Below, in pieces: positions 8,228 to 10,234 of a DNA stretch of 64,000 nt. Each line of letters opens with the position of its first letter. Positions within the stretch are counted from its first letter, which is position 1. The stretch is from contig NZ_CP016804.1 of NCBI RefSeq assembly GCF_001886955.1, forward strand, positions 496,001-560,000, written 5' to 3'. Source of the stretch: Halodesulfurarchaeum formicicum (GTDB lineage Archaea > Halobacteriota > Halobacteria > Halobacteriales > Halobacteriaceae). Below the pieces are notes generated by a model. That model was not told the DNA's origin. It did no database searches and saw only the letters and a program-made list of their open reading frames with translations. Made by a program: the position numbers and the translations under genes.

Positions 8228-9187
8228 CTACCGGACCTGATTGACCAACCCGTCGAAGGAGCCTGTTTCTGCAGCGATTTCGACGTTTTCCGCCAGGATG
8301 TCTGCCCGCCGCTCCCAGTAGTTCGGCGTGAAGCCGGCGTGATGGGGCGTCAGAAAGACGTTGTCGAGTCCCCAGAGTTCGTGGTCTGCCGGCAGCGGCT
8401 CGGGGTCGGTGACATCGAGGGCCGCCCCACGAATCCCGTTTCGTTGGAGTTCGCTCACTAGCGCTTCGGTCTCGACGATCGGGCCGCGTGCGATGTTGAC
8501 GAGCACACTATCAGGCGACATCGTTTCGAGGGCCGTCTCGTCGATCAATCCGCGAGTAGTTTCGGTGAGTGGGCTCGCGACGACGACGTAGTCACTGCGT
8601 GCGAGCGCGTCGTGGAGGGCCTCGCCTTCGAGGCCGGCGATCTCGTCGGCCGGGCCGCCCTTCTCCGGGGTGTATCGCAGGCCGATCGTGTGCACGCCGA
8701 AGGGTTCGAGTCGCTGGAGGACGGCTTGCCCGATCGCACCGAGACCGATGACGGTCACGGTACTCCCCTGGAGTTCGTGGGTCTGGAAGGCCTGCCACTC
8801 CCGGCGTTCCTTCTGTCGCCAGGCGGTCGGGAACCCCCGAGCGAACGACAGGATGCTCCCGAGGACGTACTCGGCGATGTTCGGCCCGTGGACGCCCGAG
8901 CCGTTGGTCACGGCGATGCCGTGGTCCTCGAGGACGTCGAGTGGGAGGTGTTCGGTCCCGGCGTAGGTCCCGGCGAAGAGTTCGAGGTTCTCGGCCCGTT
9001 CGACGGCTTCCGGGTCGATGTTCGTCCCGGCCGCGATCTGGGCGGTCCGGAGCAACGCTCGCTCCTCGCTCGGTGTTCTGGCGACGCTGATTTCGGCTTC
9101 GGGGAGCCGTTCTTCGAGGGCCGCGGCGTAGGACTCGCCGTCCAGTCCCTGCAACTGCTGTCTGAGCACGACGATGTCGACTGTCAC
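8228..9187 (-). CDS. D-2-hydroxyacid dehydrogenase
   Basis: This 319 aa protein carries the NAD-binding motif VIGLGAIGQAVLQRL around residue 145, the arginine/acid region VNIARGPIVETEALV and the catalytic-histidine segment LTPHHAGFTPNYWERR. That is the layout of the SerA/GhrB/phosphoglycerate-dehydrogenase superfamily without a C-terminal ACT domain. The substrate (glyoxylate, hydroxypyruvate or another 2-oxoacid) cannot be assigned. Confidence 0.92.
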   Translation of the reverse strand: MTVDIVVLRQQLQGLDGESYAAALEERLPEAEISVARTPSEERALLRTAQIAAGTNIDPEAVERAENLELFAGTYAGTEHLPLDVLEDHGIAVTNGSGVHGPNIAEYVLGSILSFARGFPTAWRQKERREWQAFQTHELQGSTVTVIGLGAIGQAVLQRLEPFGVHTIGLRYTPEKGGPADEIAGLEGEALHDALARSDYVVVASPLTETTRGLIDETALETMSPDSVLVNIARGPIVETEALVSELQRNGIRGAALDVTDPEPLPADHELWGLDNVFLTPHHAGFTPNYWERRADILAENVEIAAETGSFDGLVNQVR

Positions 9188-9261
9188 ACCCTCCGGTAGG
9201 GGGAGCCCTATGAAAAGTTTCGGCCCCGGTCGGCGGACAGGTTTTTCCGCGGTCCCCGCGC

Positions 9262-9425
9262 ATACTGACCTGCGTGCCGTAGTCCCCGCCCGAGCAAGCC
9301 TCCCAGGGCGCGATGACCGGTGGAGAACCCCGGCACGCGACAGACACGCCCGGCACGAGGGTTACCCGGCCGACGCGGCACGCCGCCAGGGATGACGTCG
9401 GGAGTTAGTGTTCCGGGCGACATTC
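9262..9425 (+). ncRNA. Two-hairpin H/ACA guide RNA (23S rRNA pseudouridylation)
   Basis: No credible ORF fills this gap. Hairpin 1 has an 8-bp basal stem (9272-9279 with 9331-9338) followed by ACA at 9340. Hairpin 2 has a 7-bp basal stem (9347-9353 with 9413-9419) followed by ACA at 9420, and an upper stem 9370-9375 with 9396-9401. Hairpin 1 shows a possible kink-turn (GA at 9292, ATGA at 9313). In hairpin 2 the pocket GAGGGTTA (9357-9364) pairs with UGACCCUC, and GTTA (9404-9407) with UAAC, of 23S helix 69, the site of E. coli U1915. In hairpin 1 AACCC (9326-9330) fits GGGUU just before E. coli U2586. The rRNA target sequences are from memory. Both match known haloarchaeal pseudouridine sites made by Cbf5. 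Confidence 0.82.
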
Positions 9426-9510
9426 GACCGTATCGAGCGCTTGCTTCGCACGCCGTCCGCTTGGGAATTTCTGGCCAAACACTCAAGAATTGCGTACACG
9501 TATTTTAGGT

Positions 9511-9756
9511 ATGGCGACCATAGAAATCGATGACGACGTTTACGAGGCGTTACAGCTCCCGGAGAGGGAGCGCTCACCCGCGATGAAGCGGGAGTTAGCG
9601 GTCTCGCTGTACGCCCGCGATATCCTTTCGTTCGGAAAAGCCCGTACGTTGGCAGAGATGTCGAAACGGGAGTTTCAGGAACTCCTCGGCGAACGTGAAA
9701 TCGTCCGTCACTACGGCGAACGAGAACTCGAAGAAGATCTCGACTATGCCGGATAG
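9511..9756 (+). CDS. UPF0175-family antitoxin-like protein
   Basis: This 81 aa protein starts MATIEIDDDVYEALQLPERE and contains RELAVSLYARDILSFGKART and MSKREFQELLGERE. That is the UPF0175 pattern, a small helix-turn-helix antitoxin usually paired with a DUF3368 PIN toxin. A TATA-like TATTTTAGG sits just before the start. Its stop overlaps the start of a PIN fragment by 11 bases, the usual antitoxin-toxin arrangement, but the toxin is truncated (see next entry). Confidence 0.82.
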   Translation: MATIEIDDDVYEALQLPERERSPAMKRELAVSLYARDILSFGKARTLAEMSKREFQELLGEREIVRHYGERELEEDLDYAG

Positions 9757-9889
9757 CGGGCTGGTTGTTTCTGATACCTCGCCACTCCTGAATCTCGCGC
9801 TCACCAACTCCAAACCACGGTACCTGAAATTGCCGGCACAAGCGGATTGTGCCCCCGATATTTGCACTGTTTGGACTCGACGGAAGTAG
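9746..9889 (+). pseudogene. Truncated PIN-domain (DUF3368-like) toxin remnant
   Basis: Only 47 codons are open. The first part, LVVSDTSPLLNLALT, is the start of a DUF3368/PIN nuclease with the first catalytic Asp. After about residue 21 the sequence (SKPRYLKLPAQADCAPDIC) no longer resembles a PIN domain and soon stops. Intact relatives run about 150-170 aa and need three further acidic residues, so this cannot be an active nuclease. The junction near 9806 looks like a deletion or rearrangement breakpoint. Confidence 0.7.
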
Positions 9890-9945
9890 TATCAGGGGAA
9901 GCCCGGGAATCAGGGGGAGAGAACCGACGTCGTCCCGCACTTCCC

Positions 9946-9985
9946 AGAGTCTCCAAAGAGACTCTACTGCATGGTATGCCATGCA
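9946..9985. repeat. Two tandem short hairpins
   Basis: Positions 9946-9953 and 9958-9965 form a perfect 8-bp stem with a CAAA loop. Positions 9968-9974 and 9979-9985 form a perfect 7-bp stem with a TATG loop. They lie in a non-coding, lower-GC stretch between the broken toxin and the next small gene. They could be a terminator, or subterminal palindromes of a lost IS200/IS605-type element. No transposase remains. Confidence 0.4.
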
Positions 9986-10045
9986 CCCGGTTATGCTTTG
10001 TGGCAATTCGAAACGGTCACAAATCTCACGGTATGCCGGACGAAC

Positions 10046-10234
10046 TCAACGGGACTTCTCCAGTTCGGTGACTTGCACTTCCCAGTCGGGGAGTTGCTCC
10101 CCGTTACGGAGCACCCAGGACCCTGCCGGCGGGACGTCGTTTTCATACGCCGATCGGAGCACGGCCTGGAGCGTCCGCTCGAAGTCGGTAGCCGAGGCGA
10201 TGGTGTCGTCGTCGGAGTGAGGGAGGTCTGACAT
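10046..10234 (-). CDS. Small acidic protein, unknown function
   Basis: This is a 62 aa ORF starting MSDLPHSDDDTIASATDFER and ending in a tryptophan-containing EQLPDWEVQVTELEKSR tail. The acidic, haloarchaeal-like composition and ATG start with a short AT-rich leader (TATTTATG) on the coding strand support a real gene. I recognise no domain and give no function. It sits on the minus strand between the toxin remnant and an HTH regulator. Confidence 0.55.
   Translation of the reverse strand: MSDLPHSDDDTIASATDFERTLQAVLRSAYENDVPPAGSWVLRNGEQLPDWEVQVTELEKSR

Follow-up and report, generated by a model that had tools for sequence, protein, structure and literature searches.

The gene of a two-hairpin H/ACA guide RNA in Halodesulfurarchaeum formicicum appears to play two roles. 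Its RNA would guide modification at three sites of 23S rRNA, and its 3' end would serve as the attachment site (attB) of toxin-antitoxin cassettes mobilised in trans. From sequence comparisons, we give this reading a probability of about 0.85. The gene is part of a complete chromosome of 2.09 Mb and lies in the window analyzed here, i.e., the whole stretch of 64,000 nucleotides. Reading it as a guide RNA is correct, but as a guide it is already known and of low novelty. Its second role, as the place where toxin-antitoxin cassettes that lack an integrase attach, is well supported by the comparisons below and apparently undescribed.

A two-hairpin guide RNA

The guide, its promoter and its divergent neighbour occupy the following positions:

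9271..9342, + strand: HP1, first H/ACA hairpin, with a K-turn-like GA motif and an ACA box; candidate guide for 23S U2586 (E. coli numbering; 2623 in the host's own 23S)
9347..9422, + strand: HP2, second H/ACA hairpin; candidate guide for 23S U1915 and U1917 (own 1958, 1960)
9237..9247, + strand: BRE/TATA-like promoter element (ACAGGTTTTT), at a position conserved over 98 homologous loci
8228..9187, - strand: D-2-hydroxyacid dehydrogenase gene (Pfam PF02826), divergent neighbour of the guide

The first-pass annotation had described two consecutive hairpins with perfect basal stems, followed by ACA at 9340 and 9420, and all these elements were found exactly there. In HP1, GCGUGCCG (9272-9279) pairs with CGGCACGC (9331-9338), with an extra U.G pair (9271/9339) right before the ACA box (9340-9342); the guide segments are AACCC (3' guide, 9326-9330) and GUC (5' guide, 9282-9284). 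In HP2, the basal stem is formed by CGCCCGG (9347-9353) and CCGGGCG (9413-9419), followed by ACA (9420-9422), and the pocket consists of GAGGGUUA (9357-9364) and GUUA (9404-9407). The distance from guide to ACA is 14 nt in HP1 (9326 to 9340) and 16 nt in HP2 (9404 to 9420). With their pocket pairing, both hairpins agree with the rule that places the target U 14-16 nt from ACA (PMC7991803). Both also conserve GATGA facing CGAG/CGAC, a sequence pattern that may correspond to a K-turn or K-loop above the pocket. When all 164 nt were folded by energy, z was -1.1 and the minimum-energy structure differed from the two-hairpin fold. Thermodynamic folding was thus uninformative, and we used conservation instead.

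Matches to the guide RNA were found by sequence search in all 26 genomes of the host's family. At the level of the class, our HP2 covariance model (R1) matches 383 of the 391 genomes. Among the other eight, three have divergent hairpin pairs recognizable by eye, one has an assembly gap at this place, one a contig end, and three are unexplained. In a deep family (f11; genomes G230, G293, and G385, loci L280-L282), both hairpins are compact and strongly diverged, with a pocket, AGGGTCA, fully complementary to UGACCC; the HP2 model misses them. In one locus (L278, genome G189), an N plus AGATGTGTATAAGAGACAG inside the HP2 gene is a sequencing-adapter remnant, i.e., an assembly artefact.

We then compared 100 homologous loci, picked to span about 85 genera. 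HP1 and HP2 co-occur on one strand in 99 of them. A lack of compensatory stem changes in related genomes had been set beforehand as a reason to abandon the guide RNA reading. Such changes are present: over about 100 homologues, the HP2 stem has 97.6% of cells paired and 108 double-sided changes, the HP1 stem 96.4% and 211. This covariation exceeds that of all 500 shuffles and far exceeds that of slid controls. The guide segments of HP2 are nearly invariant (GAGGGTT in 98/100 homologues, GTTAGTGT in 100/100), AACCC of HP1 is kept in 97/99, and HP2 ends in ACA or ATA in 100/100.

The promoter is conserved as well. Relative to the HP1 start, 98 loci show an A at the BRE position -31 (information content, IC, 1.04) and a TATA-like stretch from -26 to -23, of which -26 to -24 are T/A-rich with an IC around 0.8. 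The host has TTTTT at 9242-9246, and its BRE/TATA lies 23-32 nt upstream of HP1. The conservation of these elements at fixed upstream positions indicates that transcription would start on the plus strand, close to where HP1 begins. Genes for Cbf5, Nop10, and L7Ae are present in the host genome, and the D-2-hydroxyacid dehydrogenase gene is a conserved neighbour in relatives, accompanying the guide in 46 loci.

Relation to known guide RNAs

Judged by sequence, 9271-9422 is a haloarchaeal two-hairpin H/ACA guide, the orthologue of HP1/HP2, a guide RNA also called sR-h45. Both hairpins, their order, their guides, and their linkage are kept across the class, as expected from orthologues of sR-h45/HP1-HP2. 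The HP1/HP2 hairpins were predicted in H. volcanii and other halobacteria by Grosjean et al. 2008, with Psi2621 (E. coli 2586) as the target of HP1 and Psi1956/1958 (1915/1917) as those of HP2 (PMC2584109). Toffano-Nioche et al. 2015 name the hairpins Hvo1/Hvo2 and credit their experimental validation to Blaby et al. 2011 (PMC4652768). The host guide shares with Haloferax volcanii HP1/HP2 (Hvo1/Hvo2, sR-h45) the two hairpins, their order, the pockets, the three 23S targets, and the stand-alone gene. It differs from it in a spacing between hairpins of 3 nt, against a class median of 47 nt, and in a pocket that is altered in the host genus. Neither trait sets the host apart. The spacing, described in the literature as a "long spacer", varies continuously across the class, from -1 to 259 nt, and we rejected compactness as a unique host feature, since it is one end of this range. 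The idea of a genus-specific "improved" HP2 pocket was also dropped, because similar bases recur in other families.

A search with archaeal H/ACA models, proposed with the first-pass annotation, gave a divided result: the HP2 model built here recovers the RNA almost throughout the class, and the models of Rfam do not. With Rfam 15, no H/ACA family reached its gathering score in the host or in 16 haloarchaeal loci. The best likeness was to HgcG (RF00064), with 11.2 bits against a gathering score of 77. This family, the thermococcal Pab40/HgcG (Pf7 stems II and III), resembles host HP2 in its stem III, but the host guide lacks the first stem and scores far under the threshold. The two RNAs have been published as homologous (PMC2584109). 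The host guide thus adds one more species to a known RNA, for which Rfam has no matching family though it occurs in virtually all haloarchaea.

Predicted targets in 23S rRNA

The rRNA sequences with which the guides were first paired proved correct: GGUAACUAUGACCCUC and GGGUUUAGACCG are both present in the host's own 23S. Both target stretches are identical in 30 further 23S copies, bar one base outside the pairing region. We scanned the pockets against all 518 U of the host 23S (and 23S only). U1915 (own U1958) and U2586 (own U2623) ranked first; a failure of the host 23S to pair with the pockets would have spoken against the guide. This agrees with the assignment of AACCC in HP1, 14 nt before ACA, to U2586. 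The claim that the HP2 pocket pairs with all eight bases of its target holds in number, although one of the GAGGGTTA "pairs" is G.U. That the pocket frames both 1915 and 1917 holds for U1915; the 8-bp register fits this position only, since A9364 would pair with U1917.

It is therefore conceivable, but unlikely, that HP2 in the host genus serves only U1915. Compared with most relatives, three genomes of the genus have A for U at 9364 and GA for UC at 9402-9403, and the 8-bp register occupies U1917. However, A at the position of 9364 is common elsewhere (GAGGGTTA in 37/100 homologues), and A9403 could instead pair with U1915, which would favour U1917. A further 23S target for HP2 at own U2236 is much less probable still. 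Its context, ugac[UG]ugacccuc, allows 4+8 pairs and a score of 27, against 28 for U1915, but the site varies among haloarchaea and the guide does not follow it. Nor is U2236 among the only three 23S pseudouridines listed for Haloarcula (PMC2584109). The second UGACCCUC of the 23S around this position (L001:3723-3747), whose potential pairing with HP2 comes close to that of the H69 target, is probably a coincidence.

Hence, we retain the reading in which HP1 guides U2586 and HP2 guides U1915 and U1917, as inferred from pairing and orthology. The three positions at which the first-pass annotation placed haloarchaeal pseudouridines match the published HP1/HP2 targets (PMC2584109), and its interpretation that a single RNA may serve all three sites is supported by every computable test.

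A putative attachment site at the 3' end of the guide gene

One segment of the guide stands out by its copies elsewhere:

9406..9419, + strand: attachment core, the only part of the RNA repeated downstream in other haloarchaea

The core comprises a putative 7-bp exchange spacer, TAGTGTT (9406-9412), and a right arm, CCGGGCG (9413-9419), which doubles as the 3' strand of the HP2 basal stem. In many loci, the terminal 14-24 nt of HP2 reappear downstream; the 14-nt form is TAGTGTTCCGGGCG (9406-9419). When we slid 14-mers along the RNA, 19 of 152 loci had exact HP2 14-mers again in the 1.5 kb downstream, and no locus had them upstream. The repeated 14-mers start only at TAGTGT, 18-19 nt before the HP2 end, with none from earlier HP2 segments. 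Allowing one mismatch, 33 loci have one to three downstream copies.

The downstream copies carry a matching left arm, resulting in the composite motif CGCCCGG-TAGTGTT-CCGGGCG. This motif occurs in 70 of the 391 genomes, from 27 genera, while the reversed control pattern occurs once. In genomes where the guide could be placed, there are 106 copies; 101 of them follow the guide on its own strand, at a distance of no more than 12 kb, and none lies upstream. The genome G015 has two cassette-end motifs 1.4 Mb from the guide (L271:7749 and L271:15131), 7.4 kb apart on one strand; they bracket a squalene/phytoene synthase gene and may mark a secondary site or a larger element. In 45 of 169 loci, a longer, 53-bp cassette end occurs in the 1.5 kb that follow the guide; we never saw it upstream or on the opposite strand. 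The alignment of 105 distinct copies revealed a shared left end of about 39 bp (TTTCACTTCCACCGAGCCTACTAGTAGATTCTCGCCCGG) ahead of the TAGTGT core.

The boundaries of the copies are informative. Immediately after the 7-bp spacer comes a base that takes part in the pairing of the HP2 basal stem. At 86 of 96 boundaries it agrees with the HP2 of the host itself, where 45 were expected. This means that the arm remains with the host or, alternatively, that selection favours arms able to pair in the stem. In genomes devoid of cassettes, the host flank directly follows the core (L276 compared with L167; L135, L139, and L178 compared with L166). Two features expected of an attB are thus present, namely an oriented, precise duplication of the target at the far end of the inserts and collinear genomes with and without the insert. 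The six Haloferax loci inspected, with 0.9-6.7 kb of downstream sequence, have no cassette end, which may be why the attachment site was missed.

Since CGCCCGG-TAGTGTT-CCGGGCG can form a hairpin and sits 3' of small gene pairs, the downstream copies might be transcription terminators or REP-like hairpins that close small operons and have nothing to do with insertion. This is the least probable of the alternatives that we considered. Terminators would be expected genome-wide, not confined to one side and one strand of the guide, and they would not account for an arm that tracks the host's own HP2 base or for modules that align exactly from core to end across genera at different positions. The site specificity of cassette insertion appears instead well supported by these comparisons.

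Cassettes and arrays

The intervals between repeats define modules, which occur in tandem arrays of up to seven; many of the 96 closed intervals measure 725-960 bp. Single-linkage clustering over-merged the modules, so we grouped them by a 60% length rule, which resulted in about 40 families, 29 of them singletons. Many modules are toxin-antitoxin pairs. Recurrent cargo includes UPF0175 with a DUF3368 PIN protein, DUF433 with DUF5615 (PIN-like), and Fic/Doc, and two further recurrent families have a MazF-like appearance and no Pfam hit. Larger intervals encode transporters, hydrolases, P-type ATPases, regulators, and transposases. Several modules span multiple kb and carry ordinary host-like genes, hence an interval between repeats may not always correspond to a single mobile element. 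In many cassettes (e.g., in L251, L086, and L254), the ACA at the start is followed by a stretch resembling TTTCGACCTTTTGCAGCGCCCGCT, which might be a leader or belong to the recombination site.

Identical modules occur at different array positions in different genera and families, and their alignments begin exactly where the core begins and stop exactly where the end element stops. For example, module 1 of L242 and module 2 of L252 are 96.6% identical over 1,089 bp, and L242 shares a module at 94% identity with L265, from another family. No tyrosine recombinase was found among the module families listed or in single scans of 29 larger proteins from the arrays; one more protein scanned in this way lies outside the guide arrays. 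Among the viral contigs and plasmids searched, there was no excised circle and no plasmid or virus with a joined site.

In the mechanism that we propose, the guide would be expressed from a promoter of its own and form a complex with Cbf5, Nop10, Gar1, and L7Ae, and TAGTGT[T/C] within HP2 would be the point of cassette entry. Every cassette would open with the last 14 nt of the guide and the ACA-side flank, and close with the conserved element of about 39 bp ending in CGCCCGG. As a cassette carries the guide 3' end and closes in CGCCCGG, its insertion would restore an intact guide gene and push older cassettes downstream, building arrays. Joined cassette ends would give CGCCCGG-TAGTGTT-CCGGGCG, i.e., inverted arms on either side of a 7-bp spacer. 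This layout would suit a tyrosine recombinase, which would perform a conservative exchange within TAGTGT[T/C]. Given that the cassettes examined encode no recombinase, the enzyme would have to act in trans. The toxin-antitoxin cargo may persist because it is self-stabilising.

The lack of a recombinase gene in the cargo examined would also fit a scenario of rare founding insertions, after which cassettes spread mainly by homologous recombination between the repeats of about 60 bp and their flanks, with no active site-specific recombinase. The array repeats are long enough for this, and we regard the scenario as a real, if rather improbable, alternative. Against it, cassette-less genomes do not have the 39-bp end, and yet single cassettes have entered the genomes of their relatives precisely at the core; homology at the empty site amounts to only 14 nt or slightly more. 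The spread of cassettes across families also favours a site-specific step.

A cassette remnant in the window

The host itself carries part of one such cassette:

9406..9803, + strand: 5' part of a toxin-antitoxin cassette, about 398 of some 905 bp, right-hand end lost
9511..9756, + strand: UPF0175 antitoxin-like gene (PF03683, Pfam E-value 6.6e-24), intact
9746..9803, + strand: 5' fragment of a PIN-type (DUF3368) toxin gene, truncated near 9803

The segment 9406-9803 aligns at 79-87% identity with complete UPF0175/DUF3368 cassettes of other genera and families, the closest being module 4 of L251 (87%) and module 1 of L086 (86%). The best six alignments start at the first base of the cassette, i.e., at the core. 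The UPF0175 gene is also found in cassettes of L015, L020, L022, and L086, and the intact partner in cassettes of this family matches DUF3368 (PF11848, E-value 8.8e-13). No right-hand cassette end remains in the window. Past the remnant, the region 9804-10231 includes about 180 bp at 84% identity with the sister genome and is not obviously coding.

The cassette with the UPF0175 gene is absent from the sister species (L003). Together with the alignments that begin at the cassette start, this absence suggests that the 3' strand of the host HP2 basal stem and the ACA box probably arrived with the cassette. The start of a UPF0175/DUF3368 cassette would thus now be the guide 3' end, the toxin and the right end having been lost later. 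In this the host would differ from Haloferax volcanii HP1/HP2, as its guide has a 3' end supplied by an inserted cassette.

Comparison with known systems

The arrays resemble integrons in several respects: a constant point of entry in the chromosome, sub-kb cassettes that lie in tandem and lack a recombinase, a conserved recombination site at each cassette end, and many toxin-antitoxin cargoes. Integrons have also been reported in Archaea (PMC9668308). The differences are also clear. The entry site here lies inside an H/ACA RNA gene that has to be rebuilt, and the cassette end appears, in our own judgement, unlike attC. There is no IntI beside the entry site, as the guide in the window is flanked by the dehydrogenase gene and that of an aspartate-semialdehyde dehydrogenase, and no integrase was seen in the cassettes examined.

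The Xer/pdif modules of Acinetobacter plasmids are toxin-antitoxin modules bounded by short sites with inverted arms and mobilised by a recombinase in trans. The cassettes at the guide share the cargo, the type of bounding site and, putatively, the recombinase in trans, but they are chromosomal and archaeal, have one fixed orientation, and are tied to one RNA gene. With elements integrated at the 3' ends of tRNA genes (PMC8371274), the cassettes would share an attB at the 3' end of an RNA gene, its rebuilding on insertion, a 7-bp spacer, and inverted arms. Here, in contrast, the target is an H/ACA guide gene, and the cassettes are tiny and lack an integrase. The targets named in a review of the tyrosine recombinases of archaea are tRNA genes, intergenic sites, and coding genes; its text, when searched, showed no mention of an sRNA or snoRNA (PMC8371274).

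We found no prior description of a guide-gene attachment site in the open-licence literature, and one may exist elsewhere. Taken together, an undescribed haloarchaeal integron-like system, in which a pool of integrase-less toxin-antitoxin cassettes with ends of about 60 bp enters at the guide gene, is mobilised in trans, and leaves the guide intact, seems to us fairly likely. We know of no other H/ACA guide gene that acts as an integration site, and this one, if the reading is true, would be the first. The guide site would explain the chromosomal entry point of the archaeal toxin-antitoxin cassette pool, and a concrete site of 53-60 bp would provide a handle for finding the recombinase.
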